From: Swingsia samuiensis
Lineage (GTDB): Bacteria; Pseudomonadota; Alphaproteobacteria; Acetobacterales; Acetobacteraceae
Assembly: GCF_006542355.1 (NCBI RefSeq)
Contig: NZ_CP038141.1
Coordinates: forward strand, 1,866,001-1,930,000
Length of the DNA: 64,000 nt
Reading direction: 5' to 3'
Part shown: piece after piece, positions 36,924 through 42,503 of the stretch
Layout of the letters: every line of letters starts with the position of its first letter
Numbering within the stretch: position 1 is the stretch's first letter
Notes under the pieces: model-generated
Database searches by the model: none
Told to the model about the DNA's origin: nothing
Seen by the model: the letters and a program-made list of their open reading frames with translations, nothing else
Translations under genes and position numbers: made by a program

Positions 36924-39248
36924 TTGGCATTGTCTGGCTCAGAAATCATCGATCCGGCGCGTAGCCCAGCTAATATTCGTCGACGAATTTGGCAGTTTTT
37001 AGGGCCGGTTTTGGGGGTTGTCCTAGTCATTGCAACAATCAGCGCTATAAGTTTACATAATTATAGATCCACACGAAATGGGGTTATTTCGTTGTCATCT
37101 GATTTGCTTCGAAATTTGCAGCGTTATATTGCTCAGGAGCTGAATAATTATATTTCTCCGGCTATGGAAAGCGCTGGAATAGCGAATGATATGTTTCTGG
37201 ATCCGATAACGGATCAAGTGCCACAAACATTTATGCTGTATGGGCGCTCCATGCTGGCCCATATGCCGCAAGTTGACAGCTTCTATCTTGCAAATGATCA
37301 GGGGCAGTTTTGGTTGGTCATTCGTCATGGCGACGGTTACGATCAAACACATTTGCAAAAAGAAAATGGTCAAATGGTCTACCGCCATGTGTACGTAGAT
37401 CAAAAGGGCACTTTCAAAGGAACTGGGTTTGATCCTGCATCTGCTCCACCATCATCTAAGCCATGGTTTCGTGGAGCTGTTGAGCGTGCGGGAAAAGGGG
37501 ACGAAGCCCTATATTGGACAGATCCTTACGCCTATATGGCCACACACCAGTTTATTATAACGGCATCCATAGCTTTCCGTACGAGCGATGGTCACCAAGC
37601 TGTTTTTGCAATTAATATTTCGTTGAATCGATTAACTGACTTTCTTAACCACTTGCAGGTGGGGCGTAGTGGGCAGGCCGTTATTGTTGACATGCAGGGC
37701 CATATTATTGCTGGCCATAATGCGGAAGCGTTGCGAAAAAGTGTTGGGTTTGATCCATCGAAGGTGAAGCTTGACCCTGACACACAGCCTGTTTTTGTAA
37801 GAGCGCTAAATGAATTTCGAATTAAGGGATCAGGCCCTGGTATCGTTAATTCTCGCGGCCGTAATTATGTAACAATCGCGACGGAAACAACGTCTATACA
37901 TCGTCACTGGGTATTATTGATTAATGCTCCTGAAAGTGACTTTTCGGCTTTCGAAGTAAACGATCGTAAACAAACCATAATCTTCTCAGTTCTGGTTGTA
38001 AGCCTTGCGTGTGTGCTCGCGTTGGGGTTGATCCTTCGTGGGCGTCAAGTGGATGGTCTTAAAAAACTACTGGATCAGACGCGGGAACAAATCAGAGGAG
38101 AAGATGCGGCGATATATGAAATTGCAAATACGCCGGATCTTTTCGATAGCTCAACAGATGTTCCTATTTTAACTGAAACATTGACGTCCGCTACTGGCGC
38201 CCGCAGAGCAAGTTTGTGGCGGTTATTACCCGATGGCGAACGGTTGCTGTGTGAAGATATGTTTGACGCTGCTAAAGATGTTCATAGTACGGGTATAGAA
38301 ATTCTTCAGCGGGATAATGCGCAGCTTTTTGATGTTTTGAAAGAAGGATATCCGCTTGTAATTGATGATGCGGCTTCAGATGAACGAACAATGCTCTTTC
38401 AGCGCGTTGTGATGAAACTAGCAGATACGAACAAGTTAGTATTTCACCCCATAATGCATGGGCATCAACCTGTTGGTGTCGTTATTTTGGAAGATCCAAG
38501 CCACATTAATTCCATGGATCATATTATAGCCATGGTGTCTTCTGTTGCGTTGGTACGTTTCTCTCACGCGATAGAAAAGACGAGCGCAATAGAAAATGAT
38601 CGTGAGGATTTGCATCAAGATCTTCAAGAAACCCGTTATGACCAAGGTTTCTTGGTTCACATGCCAGAGGAAAATAATGACCAGTTTGTTCCGTCAGGTG
38701 TATATCCACAAGTGCCGGTAATGGTTATTATTTTTTCGGATCCTTATATTGTAACGCAAAAACAAGCCGTAGCCACGGGGATGTCTATTGTTTCAGCCTT
38801 GGCTGAAAAAGTGCAAGATATTGTTCGGGATGCGGGTCTATTTTCGGCACAAGTGATTAGCAATCGTTTGGTTCTTATTGGGGAATGTTCCATGGAACCA
38901 GATCCGAATATGGTGTTGCGCCTTGCAGATGTGGCGATTTCCATCCGAGAAGCTAGCCTTACCCTTTTGGCGAATGCAGATATGGCCCCAATATTTAGTA
39001 TTGGTTTAGATATTGGTCCCGTAATGGCGGCAATGCTTGGAAAAGACCCTGCCGTTTTTAATATATGGGGAGAGGCCGTTAATACGGCTGAATTGTTGGC
39101 AAATAGCGTTCAAGATGCAGGAACAATTAAAGTTTCTGAACAGTTTTACATGAAATTAAGGGATCATTTCCTCTTTCGGTCTAGAGGAAATTTTTACTTG
39201 CCCGGAACAGGGGTAACGAGAAGCTTTATTTTGGCAGGGCGTCGATGA
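36924..39248 (+). CDS. Membrane receptor with CACHE, GAF and degenerate cyclase-like domain
   Basis: This 774-residue protein has a first membrane helix (about residues 22-45), an extracytoplasmic double-CACHE-like sensor (about 46-345, with KPWFRGAVERA and ALYWTDPYAYMATHQFIIT), a second helix (about 350-372), a GAF-like domain (about 400-545) and a class III cyclase homology domain (about 596-770). In the last, one metal Asp (606) and Asn720 are kept. By my alignment the second metal Asp is Asn647 and the transition-state Arg is Leu724, so the domain is probably not catalytic. The start TTG at 36924 (or 36930) follows GGGAG. Its TGA overlaps the ATG of the MlaE gene. Role unknown; it probably regulates or assembles with the transporter. 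Confidence 0.75.
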   Translation: MALSGSEIIDPARSPANIRRRIWQFLGPVLGVVLVIATISAISLHNYRSTRNGVISLSSDLLRNLQRYIAQELNNYISPAMESAGIANDMFLDPITDQVPQTFMLYGRSMLAHMPQVDSFYLANDQGQFWLVIRHGDGYDQTHLQKENGQMVYRHVYVDQKGTFKGTGFDPASAPPSSKPWFRGAVERAGKGDEALYWTDPYAYMATHQFIITASIAFRTSDGHQAVFAINISLNRLTDFLNHLQVGRSGQAVIVDMQGHIIAGHNAEALRKSVGFDPSKVKLDPDTQPVFVRALNEFRIKGSGPGIVNSRGRNYVTIATETTSIHRHWVLLINAPESDFSAFEVNDRKQTIIFSVLVVSLACVLALGLILRGRQVDGLKKLLDQTREQIRGEDAAIYEIANTPDLFDSSTDVPILTETLTSATGARRASLWRLLPDGERLLCEDMFDAAKDVHSTGIEILQRDNAQLFDVLKEGYPLVIDDAASDERTMLFQRVVMKLADTNKLVFHPIMHGHQPVGVVILEDPSHINSMDHIIAMVSSVALVRFSHAIEKTSAIENDREDLHQDLQETRYDQGFLVHMPEENNDQFVPSGVYPQVPVMVIIFSDPYIVTQKQAVATGMSIVSALAEKVQDIVRDAGLFSAQVISNRLVLIGECSMEPDPNMVLRLADVAISIREASLTLLANADMAPIFSIGLDIGPVMAAMLGKDPAVFNIWGEAVNTAELLANSVQDAGTIKVSEQFYMKLRDHFLFRSRGNFYLPGTGVTRSFILAGRR

Positions 39249-40054
39249 GTTTCTTAGACAAAATTCCTTTTGTAAGAAACTTTTTGCAGCGTTTGGGAGC
39301 CGTTTCCCGTTCGCAAATGCGATTTACGCTTATGTTGATCGGTGTTTCATGGGGGGTCATGCGTGAAGCAGCTTTTCCAACATCATGGCGAAGGACGGTA
39401 AGAATTGAGTTTTGGTCGACGCTTAAGCAAGCAATTGGCGGTGGTTTACTCAGTGTTCTAGTAACGGCAGGGTTAACGGGTTTTGGAATTGTTGCTCAAG
39501 CTGTTTATTGGCTTGGTTTTGCAGGGATGGCACAGCTTACAGGGTCTATTTTGTCGACTGTGCTCGTAAGAGAAATTGCACCTATTCTTGTGGGTGTTAT
39601 TTTGCTCGGACGTTCGGGGATGTTGATTTTAACTGAGCTTGGTATGCTGAGTACTGGTGGTCAAATGAGGGTCTTAATGGGGATGGGGATAGATCCCTTT
39701 TTCGCTTTCATTTTACCCAGAAGCCTTGCAATGACAGTTGGAGGTTTTACTCTAGGGGTTATATTTAGTTCAGCAGCACTTTTAGTGGGATATGTTGTTT
39801 GTAGAGCTGAAGGCGTTATTACAATGTCGCTTTGGTCCTTTCTCGACCAAGTGACAAGTAGCATGCATTTAATTGATTATATTTCTATTTTTGCAAAATT
39901 TGTTTTTAGTGGATTTGCCGTTGGTATTTGTTGTTGTTTATCAGGGATTGATACGACAACAGATGATGATCTCGCTTCTTTGATGCCTCGAGGTTTTGCG
40001 CGTGGAATGTTATCGATTATGATTATCAATGTTGTTTTAAGCGTTTGGTTATAA
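39245..40054 (+). CDS. mlaE: MlaE-family lipid ABC transporter permease
   Basis: This 269-residue membrane protein has the MlaE pattern: the LVREIAPILVGVILLGRSG segment, ELGMLSTGGQMRVLMGMGIDP as the coupling region and ILPR as its end. Five or so membrane segments follow the N-terminal amphipathic part. MlaE forms the inner-membrane core of MCE transporters that move phospholipids between membranes. The usual Glu of the VTEQ coupling loop is Gly here, notable because the partner ATPase is also degenerate. The ATG overlaps the receptor stop by four bases. Confidence 0.93.
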   Translation: MSFLDKIPFVRNFLQRLGAVSRSQMRFTLMLIGVSWGVMREAAFPTSWRRTVRIEFWSTLKQAIGGGLLSVLVTAGLTGFGIVAQAVYWLGFAGMAQLTGSILSTVLVREIAPILVGVILLGRSGMLILTELGMLSTGGQMRVLMGMGIDPFFAFILPRSLAMTVGGFTLGVIFSSAALLVGYVVCRAEGVITMSLWSFLDQVTSSMHLIDYISIFAKFVFSGFAVGICCCLSGIDTTTDDDLASLMPRGFARGMLSIMIINVVLSVWL

Positions 40055-40060
40055 TCGGTT

Positions 40061-40789
40061 ATGTCAGAGAATAACGACTACCAGAATGAACGACAGATTA
40101 TAGATCCTATTCTAGAATTAATTGATGCGCGCCCTCAATTTGATGAGGGTGGCTTATCCTCTGTACGTTATAACTTACGTCTCAATCCGGGAGATTGTGT
40201 TTTAATTGAAAGCAAGGATGTTCAGCAGGCTGCTAAATTTACGGATATGTGTCTTGGGCTTGTTGACCTAACAGAAGGACAAATCCGGTGTATGGGTTTG
40301 GATTGGGCAGATTTGGATGAAAAAAGGCAAGCTGCGTTAAGAGGGCGAGTAGGCCGGATTGTTTCTAATGGCGGATGGATAGACCTTTATGGAACACACA
40401 TGAACATTCTGTGGCCTCAATTATACCACACAAAAATACCGGAGAAGGTATTAATACAGCGTGCCGTGAAATTAGGGATAAAATTTGGTTTGCCGGGGCT
40501 CCCTGTTGATGTTCCTAATAAATTGACGGCATTAGATCGTTCTCGCGCAGATTGTGTGAGGGCTTTTCTGGGCAATCCTTCGCTTTTATTATTGGAAAAC
40601 CCAATGGGGAATGCTTCAGAAGATTTGAATATAGCTTTTTTAGAGATGTTGACTGAAGTGCGTAATCAAGGATGTGCTGTTATTTGGTTAGCCCCTGATG
40701 ACAAGGGGTGGAAAAACTATAAAAAGGATACAACTTTTCAGTTGCGTCTTATGGATGATGGATTGGTTTCTGCCAAGAAGAGGTCGTGA
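40061..40789 (+). CDS. MlaF-like ABC protein lacking ATPase motifs
   Basis: This 242-residue protein is in the MlaF position and follows the ABC fold: GDCVLIES for the P-loop strand, VSNGGWIDLYGTHMNIL for the Q-loop region, LTALDRSRAD in place of the LSGG signature, LLLLENP for Walker B. All catalytic elements are changed. No GxxGxGKS/T exists (residues 50-60 are ESKDVQQAAKF), the Walker B Asp is Glu179, the catalytic Glu is Asn180, and the switch His is replaced (Pro212 by eye). It should neither bind nor hydrolyse ATP in the normal way. The frame is intact and coupled to its neighbours, so it is not a decayed gene. A structural or regulatory role in the transporter is inferred. Confidence 0.82.
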   Translation: MSENNDYQNERQIIDPILELIDARPQFDEGGLSSVRYNLRLNPGDCVLIESKDVQQAAKFTDMCLGLVDLTEGQIRCMGLDWADLDEKRQAALRGRVGRIVSNGGWIDLYGTHMNILWPQLYHTKIPEKVLIQRAVKLGIKFGLPGLPVDVPNKLTALDRSRADCVRAFLGNPSLLLLENPMGNASEDLNIAFLEMLTEVRNQGCAVIWLAPDDKGWKNYKKDTTFQLRLMDDGLVSAKKRS

Positions 40790-41745
40790 TGTTTCGGATA
40801 CGTCGTGTAGATAGTGCTCGTCCTCTTTTTAAAAATCGGTATGCAGATGAATGGGTAGGCCTTCTTGTTCTTGGTGCGCTCATTTTATTTGCAGGAGCTT
40901 TGACAGAAGCTGGTTTGCTCAAAAAATGGCTTACACCAGAAAAGAAGATTCATTTTGTTTTGCCAGAGAGTGGTGTAGCAGGCCTTGCGATTGGTAATGA
41001 TATTGAAATTATGGGTGTCCATGCTGGAGAAATTCGTAATCTGGATTTGAACCAGGAAGGACATATGTATGCAGAAGGTGAGATAGAGCCTCAGTTTATT
41101 CCTTTCATTCGTCAAGATAGTTCTGCTGTAATTCGACACCGTTTTGTCGTTGCGGGTGCAAGTTACATTGAATTGAGCCGAGGTGCAGGCCAACCTCTTG
41201 ATTGGGGGTATGCTGTTCTAAATGCGACGGTTGAACCTAACCCTGCCGATGTCATTACCAAAACAGTAATTGATCTTCGTGGTCTTTTGCTGCCTGCTAT
41301 GAATAATGTTCAGCAAATGACGAAGCAGCTGAATGATATGCTGACAGATATGCACTCAGGGAAAGGAACTGTGGGTGGTCTTCTCTATAAAGATACGGTT
41401 CTTCAGCATGCGAACCAAGTTTTAGAAAATCTGAACGATACGATTGCGAAGTTGAAACCTGTAGAAAATCAATTAAACATCGTTATGAAGAATGCAAACG
41501 GCACCGTTGAGAATGTCCGTGCGACGACGGCATCCTTGCGGAAAGATATGCCACAAGTTCATCAGACGTTAAGTCATGTTAATGATGCTACAGCCCAGCT
41601 TCCTACTTTATTAACCCAAGCAGAAGCGAGTGCGAATAGCTTGCGGAAGTTAATGGATCAAATAAGAGGGCTTTGGATCCTTGGGGGAAGTGGAAGTGCA
41701 AAATCTTCGTCACAGCGTCTTCCAGCACAAGCGGTAAAACCATGA
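40789..41745 (+). CDS. mlaD: MlaD/MCE-domain protein
   Basis: The 318-residue protein has one membrane helix (about residues 23-45), an MCE domain (about 52-130, with GVAGLAIGNDIEIMGVHAGEIR and AGASYIELSRG) and a long helical tail (about 150-290) typical of MlaD-like substrate-binding rings. It is anchored in the inner membrane and faces the periplasm. The ATG at 40789 overlaps the previous stop as TGATG and is preceded by AAGAGG. A longer tail than Escherichia coli MlaD suggests a PqiB/YebT-like or LetB-like needle is not formed, as only one MCE domain exists. Confidence 0.93.
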   Translation: MFRIRRVDSARPLFKNRYADEWVGLLVLGALILFAGALTEAGLLKKWLTPEKKIHFVLPESGVAGLAIGNDIEIMGVHAGEIRNLDLNQEGHMYAEGEIEPQFIPFIRQDSSAVIRHRFVVAGASYIELSRGAGQPLDWGYAVLNATVEPNPADVITKTVIDLRGLLLPAMNNVQQMTKQLNDMLTDMHSGKGTVGGLLYKDTVLQHANQVLENLNDTIAKLKPVENQLNIVMKNANGTVENVRATTASLRKDMPQVHQTLSHVNDATAQLPTLLTQAEASANSLRKLMDQIRGLWILGGSGSAKSSSQRLPAQAVKP

Positions 41746-42503
41746 GATATACAGTTTGTGGAGCTTTTTTCTTGCTTCTTGCGAGTTGCTCATCTGGAAA
41801 TTCCGGCAAACAGCCTGATTCTCAATATGAAGATGCAATGGAGACTGGCCGGAGTGTTTTTGATATGGGACACCCCGATCAGGCCGAAATGCAATATCGA
41901 GCAGCAATGAAGCGTGCTTTGCTGCGAGCCGATCCTCAGCAAATACATGATGCAGGGTTTAATTTGGCAACCTCTCTTGTCCGAGAGAAGAAACCGGCAC
42001 AGGCCATACAAGAAGTAGATAAAACGTTAGCTACGCTTAGCTTGTATAATTATAATAATAATTTGGATTTTTATCTCATTAAAGCCGCCGCCGCCGCACA
42101 ACAGAAAAATTGGGTGATGGCAGAAGGTTTTTCTTTAAAAGCTTTGAAATCATCGGATGGGTCAACGCACGATCAAGCGGCTTATCTCGCTGGAATAAGT
42201 GCTGATGCTCTAGGAGATAGAAATTTATTAGCCCAAATGAAAGAGGCGCTAAGTCCGGCTAAAGGAAAAACGACAATTAGTCTGGATTATCAAGAGTTGT
42301 CGGCTCGTCTGGATGTTAAAGATCATCATTATTCGCAGGCTTTAACGCAAGCTATGCAGCTGGTGCAGGAGCGACGAGATGCCTTGGATTATGACGGGAT
42401 GCGCAATGCATTACTGATTGGGGCGTATGCAGCAGAAGGAATGGGTAATATGCAAGAAGCTGCAAATTTACGGCAACAGGAAAATTTAAGCGCGCAGAAA
42501 TAA
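41742..42503 (+). CDS. TPR-like lipoprotein of the Mla operon
   Basis: This 253-residue protein has a signal peptide ending in the lipobox LLASC, so it is a lipoprotein. The mature part is Ala/Gln-rich and helical, with TPR-like pairs (AMETGRSVFDMGHPDQAEMQYRAAM, and ALTQAMQLVQERRDALDY). The ATG at 41742 overlaps the mlaD stop as ATGA; the longer open frame lies in mlaD. It replaces the usual MlaB/MlaC position, but it has no similarity that I recognise to MlaC (DUF330/VacJ partners) or to MlaB. It could link the transporter to the outer membrane. Confidence 0.85.
   Translation: MRYTVCGAFFLLLASCSSGNSGKQPDSQYEDAMETGRSVFDMGHPDQAEMQYRAAMKRALLRADPQQIHDAGFNLATSLVREKKPAQAIQEVDKTLATLSLYNYNNNLDFYLIKAAAAAQQKNWVMAEGFSLKALKSSDGSTHDQAAYLAGISADALGDRNLLAQMKEALSPAKGKTTISLDYQELSARLDVKDHHYSQALTQAMQLVQERRDALDYDGMRNALLIGAYAAEGMGNMQEAANLRQQENLSAQK

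Follow-up and report, generated by a model that had tools for sequence, protein, structure and literature searches.

Among described MCE systems, the locus reported here is best compared with the MlaFEDB transporters of E. coli, Acinetobacter and Pseudomonas, which combine an MlaE-type permease, a subunit of nucleotide-binding domain (NBD) fold at the MlaF position, and MlaD, which carries an MCE domain. PqiABC and LetAB are also MCE systems, and their inner-membrane proteins, PqiA and LetA, are not of the MlaE type and have no NBD subunit. In E. coli, the MlaF variants K47A and E170Q do not complement (PMC7367683). In vitro, roughly 20% of the ATPase activity nevertheless persists in E170Q, so that a protein which has lost only the catalytic Glu may still be active (PMC7784689). 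E. coli MlaE is outward-open, unlike most nucleotide-free ABC transporters (PMC7790496). One survey reported a long MlaD in 85% of MlaD homologues, and the same source describes a minimal MlaEFD system in Veillonella parvula, a three-gene core without MlaABC that has a long MlaD, and MlaE and MlaF closely similar to those of model diderms (PMC10665443). The chimeric Mla-Pqi system Mpc consists of MlaE, MlaF and MlaD homologues and an extra component, MpcA, proposed to be a membrane bridge. The authors call its ABC transporter well conserved, MpcF being an ABC ATPase and MpcE having a STAS domain at its N terminus, and describe PqiA and LetA as being without an ATPase domain (PMC12436622).

The window (the whole stretch of 64,000 nucleotides that was analysed) contains five genes in one order between positions 36924 and 42503, encoding a Cache-GAF-cyclase sensor, a permease (MlaE2), an NBD-fold protein (pF, P0001), a long MlaD (MlaD2) and a TPR lipoprotein. 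In its core this operon resembles MlaFEDB, with an MlaE-type permease, an NBD-fold subunit at the MlaF position and an MCE-domain MlaD. Unlike MlaFEDB, its NBD is without an ATPase motif, its MlaD is long, a sensor and a TPR lipoprotein are added, and neither MlaB nor MlaC was seen in the operon. It shares the long MlaD and the MlaE, MlaF and MlaD core with the V. parvula system, from which it differs in its apparently dead NBD and in the added lipoprotein and sensor. It has in common with Mpc the three homologues and an additional component, and with PqiABC and LetAB an inner-membrane protein that has no ATPase domain; PqiC is an outer-membrane lipoprotein, as the lipoprotein of this operon is predicted to be. 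We propose that the operon joins energetics like those of Pqi and Let to parts of the ABC/MCE type. Its features are as follows.

36924 to 39248, forward strand: sensor, with dCache_1, GAF and class III cyclase-fold domains (Pfam)
39245 to 40054, forward strand: MlaE2, an MlaE-type permease whose gene overlaps the sensor gene by 4 nucleotides (PF02405, 119.9 bits, cutoff 22.5)
39635 to 39697, forward strand: coupling-helix region of MlaE2, residues 131-151, diverged from canonical MlaE
40061 to 40789, forward strand: pF, a putative pseudo-ATPase of ABC NBD fold with the ATPase motifs lost (alignment and model)
40211 to 40234, forward strand: former Walker A of pF, residues 51-58, SKDVQQAA (GGSGTGKS in the MlaF of the same genome)
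40361 to 40369, forward strand: former Q-loop, residues 101-103, VSN (alignment and family tallies)
40415 to 40432, forward strand: new conserved motif PQLHHT, residues 119-124, PQLYHT in the pF of the window (alignment)
40484 to 40504, forward strand: new conserved motif FGLPGLP, residues 142-148 (family alignment)
40523 to 40537, forward strand: former ABC signature, residues 155-159, LTALD (LSGGM in the MlaF of the same genome)
40583 to 40603, forward strand: former Walker B, residues 175-181, LLLLENP (LLENP where the MlaF of the same genome has FFDEP)
40694 to 40696, forward strand: former switch His, Pro212 (APD where the MlaF of the same genome has THD)
40786 to 41745, forward strand: MlaD2, a long-type MlaD with a transmembrane segment, an MCE domain and a helical tail (PF02470, 36.7 bits, cutoff 25.1)
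41742 to 42503, forward strand: lipoprotein with weak, sub-cutoff TPR similarity (Pfam and homologues)

The frame of pF is open throughout its 242 amino acids. It starts 6 nucleotides past the end of mlaE2, and mlaD2 starts, with GTG, 4 nucleotides inside its end, which bears out the view of the sequence-only reading that the frame is intact and coupled to mlaE and mlaD. The same reading had reported that GxxGxGKS/T is absent at residues 50-60, that the signature reads LTALD and Walker B LLLLENP with Asn180, and that the switch His is missing. An alignment of pF with the intact MlaF encoded in this genome, which served as the reference for the motif readout, showed each of these losses, the P-loop GGSGTGKS being replaced by SKDVQQAA. 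Two further losses can be added: the Asp of Walker B has become Glu179, next to Asn180 at the place of the catalytic Glu, and the Gln of the Q-loop is gone, LFQ having become IVS. With the required residues absent, pF would be unable to bind or hydrolyse ATP. In searches with pF, no Pfam family was matched at E ≤ 0.1 and NCBIfam gave only sub-cutoff ABC matches, the FtsE model scoring 45 bits against a cutoff of 264.85 and the MlaF model (NF008809/PRK11831) 16.6 bits against 441 (E 0.0038).

The fold is nonetheless predicted with confidence to be that of an ABC NBD. An AlphaFold2 model built from 20 sequences reached a pLDDT of 89.7 and a pTM of 0.87, and in a Foldseek comparison it was matched foremost by LolD, YbbA, MacB and FtsE (for LolD, E 8e-16 and TM 0.78/0.83), with MlaF structures at ranks 44, 47, 49 and 50. 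The pF profile aligned to the canonical MlaF profile at 98.9% in hhalign, and NCBIfam models matched at E ≤ 0.001 by 20 pF members were FtsE (20), DevA (19), MlaF (17) and LolD (17). Its sequence thus places pF at least as near to FtsE, LolD or DevA as to MlaF. In the model a strand runs to residue 50 and a helix starts at residue 54, so the loop for the phosphates would be short and leave little room for a P-loop.

The same losses run through the whole family. Our alignment of pF proteins, the window included, has 87 rows, 82 of them distinct, with some genomes represented twice; one row is a fragment from a broken operon (L148, genome G174) that does not reach the Walker A and signature columns, which therefore have 86 rows. 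At the position of the Walker A Lys none of these 86 has Lys and 61 have Ala; LSGG occurs in none of the 86. The third P-loop position is Asp in 61/87 rows, and Glu stands in the Walker B Asp column in 85/87. At the catalytic Glu position the 87 rows have Asn (26), His (22), Asp (12) or Glu (11) among others, Glu being absent from 76; the Q-loop column keeps Gln in 15 of 87, and the switch column keeps His in a single row and has lost it in 86. Some members are less degenerate than others, seven of 20 still being matched by the Pfam ABC_tran model at E ≤ 0.01. We rely on the Lys-column tally because the strict pattern GxxGxGK[ST] overlooks some true Walker A motifs, such as that of a protein from genome G218. 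Conservation has moved instead to ALRGR(I/V)GR, immediately ahead of the former Q-loop, and to N-I-L-x-P-Q-L-H-H-T and FGLPGLP, between the former Q-loop and signature; the second His of PQLHHT is kept in 85 of 87 rows. In NBDs, the region between Q-loop and signature faces the permease.

All 25 other sampled genomes of the genus gave a close pF match (E ≤ 4.4e-92) with the same motifs lost, and close matches were found in three further genera of the host's family. A profile search of 397 genomes of this family returned matches at E ≤ 1e-20 in 138 genomes and in 39 of 102 genera. On reading, the G218 match (E 2e-21) was recognised as an intact protein of the LolD type that is not part of such an operon, and it was dropped, leaving 137 genomes and 38 genera; at least one pF protein was read for each of the 38 genera and those of the remaining genomes were counted by profile match. 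In a class-wide sample of 385 genomes pF was found in six (E ≤ 1e-67), four from the host's family and two from others, and the next match below them, to ordinary ABC proteins, had an E-value of 2.8e-24. A scan of GTDB contigs yielded 40 named loci, among them Gluconobacter, Neokomagataea, Saccharibacter, Swaminathania, Ameyamaea, Endobacter and Skermanella, as well as metagenome-assembled genomes labelled Desulfosarcina, Desulfobacterales and Deltaproteobacteria. No protein without Walker A at the MlaF position was described in the titles and abstract openings of the open-access literature among the matches listed.

The gene is under strong purifying selection, with a median dN/dS of 0.064 (81 of 276 pairs in the usable range), as compared with 0.033 for MlaE2 (104 usable pairs) and 0.041 for MlaD2 (90). 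The chance that pF reflects a sequencing error or a recent pseudogene is negligible: isolated decay was observed in two relatives, G174 and G317, while the open frame, the same losses in the 25 genomes of the genus and the purifying selection rule out either origin. An intact Walker A at this locus in close relatives had been named beforehand as the mark of a sequence error, and Lys is found in 0/86 rows; nor was an ancestor with intact motifs at the same five-gene locus present among the aligned rows, which were themselves found through pF. Since pF is conserved across many species, it is to be regarded as a working component that is not an ATPase, rather than a broken gene. The proposal that it is a pseudo-ATPase thus fits the family-wide loss of motifs, the selection, the confident ABC fold and the intact operon.

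Three frames are split in G174 (L148), those of the sensor, MlaE2 and MlaD2, and its pF is shortened; G317 (L150) has a split sensor frame. The operon is missing from most sampled genera of the family, and this, together with its breakage in G174, indicates that it is dispensable somewhere.

Where pF occurs, it is accompanied by the same neighbours. All five genes were present in each of the 19 GTDB loci tried out of the 40 named. Of 40 further loci that were fetched, two were set aside (L141, the false match to LolD, and L148, the broken operon of G174), and the remaining 38 had MlaE2 in 38 cases, MlaD2 in 38, the sensor in 37 (all but L142) and the lipoprotein in 35, a contig end cutting off the other three. 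The two sets overlap in some genomes, and both were obtained by way of pF. A search independent of pF, with an MlaD2 profile, matched nine of 398 genomes; six were strong carriers (E ≤ 3e-109), all of them with pF, and three were weak matches outside the known carriers.

With MlaE2 and MlaD2 both above their Pfam cutoffs, the operon has the two components that define an MlaE/MlaD MCE transport system. MlaE2 is above cutoff for the MlaE family only, and the operon therefore has no inner-membrane protein of the PqiA/LetA type. In a tree MlaE2 forms a clade of its own, apart from canonical MlaE (support 99/97); the deeper branching of the divergent permeases has supports of 43/7, and the tree tool flags long-branch joins there. 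The lipobox of the lipoprotein reads LASC with Ser at +2, from which sorting to the outer membrane is predicted. A C-terminal tail of MlaD2, W[LI][LI]GG...P (positions 41674-41745 and homologues, A3), is kept in 20/20 sequences, and it is possible that it acts as a docking motif for the lipoprotein.

The first gene of the operon also appears to encode a degenerate enzyme. Its cyclase residues were placed by alignment to a mycobacterial adenylate cyclase, at positions which we take to be those of two metal-binding Asp, a Lys and an Asp for the substrate, and an Arg for the transition state. In the sensor of the window the first metal Asp is kept (D606), while Q643, N647, E717 and L724 stand at the Lys, Asp, Asp and Arg positions, so that the residue set of a class III nucleotide cyclase is incomplete. 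Among 20 sensor sequences the first metal Asp is found in 15, the Lys in 13, the second metal Asp in four, the substrate Asp in one and the transition-state Arg in two. The domain looks catalytically dead; residual nucleotide binding is possible in view of the metal Asp residues kept in 15 and four of the 20 sequences. In four other sensors the dCache and cyclase domains were above cutoff and GAF was matched as well, in one case below cutoff. Two apparently dead enzymes, sensor and pF, are thus encoded in one conserved operon.

The cell also has a complete MlaF, as a check proposed in the sequence-only reading brought out: a second mlaE-mlaF pair with intact motifs lies at 886.7-888.3 kb of the same genome, which rules out the notion that there is no other MlaF in the cell. 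The genome further has two short MlaD genes and a pair that reads as PqiA-PqiB. Hence the earlier designation "MlaF-position" is right as to position, between MlaE and MlaD, and misleading if taken to mean the MlaF of the cell, pF being the NBD of a separate, paralogous system. Each of the 47 genomes searched for MlaE, 34 that have pF or remains of it and 13 that do not, gave a match; G174 apart, where the best match was in two pieces, these matches were of canonical strength. At all 20 canonical loci fetched (18 come from genomes that bear pF), the MlaF has Walker A, an SGG signature and THD; a DEP pattern was matched in 18 of the 20, the two misses being among pF-bearing genomes. In the coupling helix, two Asp residues of canonical MlaE (present in 16/21 and 19/21 canonical sequences) are replaced in the MlaE2 of the window by Gly139 and Arg142, and these are the prevailing residues in the family, Gly in 54 and Arg in 46 of 58 MlaE2 sequences. 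A coupling helix that is conserved in a form of its own favours co-evolution with pF and speaks against the use of canonical MlaF. Because it has diverged and is conserved, MlaE2 and the canonical system probably have no ATPase in common.

Taken together, we consider it reasonably probable that positions 36924-42503 encode a distinct MCE transport system, in which the NBD subunit has become a non-catalytic structural or gating subunit of an ATP-independent, sensor-linked lipid bridge. According to this model, an MlaE2 dimer would carry two docked pF subunits; unable to take up ATP, these would keep the dimer in the outward-open conformation that nucleotide-free E. coli MlaE is known to adopt, so that MlaE2 would stay open towards MlaD2. 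A long tube of MlaD2 might then lead lipids to the TPR lipoprotein and the outer membrane, the flow following the lipids' own gradients and needing no ATP. The conduit would be opened or closed, or its assembly set, by a periplasmic ligand that binds the Cache domain and acts on pF by way of GAF and the pseudo-cyclase. Gene order is what suggests control by the Cache-GAF-pseudo-cyclase protein; passive flow, the contact between sensor and pF and the length of MlaD2 are likewise presumed. The sequence-only reading had left three choices, passive transport, transport driven by another ATPase, and regulation of the complex by pF. Of these, passive or sensor-gated transport fits best.

The diverged coupling helix of MlaE2 makes drive by another ATPase less likely, although canonical MlaF, present in the same cells, could still bind MlaE2. 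In the most direct form of this idea, canonical MlaF would drive MlaE2, and pF, by competing with it or as a regulator, would hold the system inactive until it is required. An intact MlaF does exist in the same genome and in all 18 pF-bearing genomes whose canonical locus was fetched, and there is a precedent in the mycobacterial Mce systems, which share an ATPase encoded elsewhere. Against it stand the Asp-to-Gly (54/58) and Asp-to-Arg (46/58) changes in the coupling helix and the presence of pF in all six genomes found through MlaD2 (loci found through pF being uninformative on its absence), and we consider such an arrangement unlikely. We also give little weight to the idea that the operon is a signalling or envelope-scaffold device and no transporter, in which MlaD2 would sense the state of lipids or the membrane and the pseudo-enzymes would relay it. 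Two degenerate enzymes in one operon and a sensor gene in 56 of 57 loci (some genomes being in both sets) would suit such a device, but MlaE2 and MlaD2 are above their Pfam cutoffs and have lower dN/dS values than pF (0.033 and 0.041, against 0.064), as expected of a conduit. More improbable still is some unusual mode in which pF would bind and use ATP or a different nucleotide. In its favour, the fold is still that of an NBD, Glu occupies the Walker B Asp column in 85/87 rows, and some pseudo-enzymes with lost motifs later proved active; yet the phosphate loop is replaced, between a strand ending at residue 50 and a helix starting at 54 in the model, the third P-loop position is Asp in 61/87, and signature, Q-loop and switch are lost as well in the pF of the window.

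Loci outside the pF family were surveyed as well. With a broader MlaD profile, matches at E ≤ 1e-12 were obtained in 177 of 398 genomes, often over short MlaD-sized frames; 24 of the best of these loci were read with 1.5-kb flanks, and of 20 longer stretches that were fetched two lay at places already read, leaving 18 new ones. In family f188 (L189-L209) an MlaE and a long MlaD go together with an MlaF-position protein that has no Walker A in 20 of 21 loci, no such protein being recognised in L191, and a further locus of this family (L187) also has an F-position protein without Walker A. The f188 profile matched canonical MlaF at 94.4% and pF at 93.0%, with ten column-shuffled controls at or below 1.6%. 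In six loci of f197 and f192 (L210-L213, L215, L221) the P-loop is kept and Walker B has DN or DH for DE in all six, possibly an ATP-binding, poorly hydrolysing stage. Five loci, four of f193 and one of f229 (L214, L216, L217, L219, L226), have MlaE, MlaD and a lipoprotein-like frame, and no ABC protein was detected on the coding strand of their 5.4-kb stretches; the permease was confirmed by Pfam in L219 and is assigned by its place in the tree only in L226. Seven of the 18 new stretches have a canonical MlaF, and at L229 (G789) both the P-loop and DEP are present.

Two more arrangements were observed. At L228 the operon of MlaE and long MlaD, with its Walker-less protein, is followed by a TPR lipoprotein gene and a HATPase_c_2 (anti-sigma-like) gene. 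In G1114 (L178/L186) a CHASE2-domain protein (Pfam, 1.5e-13) comes after a Walker-less F-like protein, MlaD and a lipoprotein-like frame, and MlaE was not seen beside them.

With these loci in mind, one may tentatively suggest that a branch of ABC-type MCE systems gave up ATP hydrolysis, perhaps more than once, that its NBD became a nucleotide-free gate or clamp, and that the stages of this change coexist. The stages, which we propose with similar hesitation, would be represented by L229, with Walker A and DEP, by f197 and f192, with the catalytic Glu replaced, by the Acetobacteraceae type (pF, with its Cache-GAF-pseudo-cyclase sensor) and the f188 type, with all motifs lost, and by the five loci that have no adjacent NBD.

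What is found at this locus is, by sequence, a conserved pseudo-ATPase in an otherwise complete MCE operon, of predicted function. In TAP and CFTR catalytic residues have been lost in one NBD site and the other site works; to our knowledge, the degenerate ABC pairs described all keep one working site. A pF homodimer would have none, and the pF system would thus be an ABC transporter with a homodimeric NBD without a working site. For MCE systems, the need for ATP and the direction in which lipids move are an open question in the field, and a natural MlaE-MlaD pair with a conserved non-catalytic NBD makes it possible to test directly whether an ABC-type lipid permease needs ATP in order to work or to be gated. 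With a pseudo-cyclase encoded alongside, control of the system may have passed from hydrolysis to a signal.
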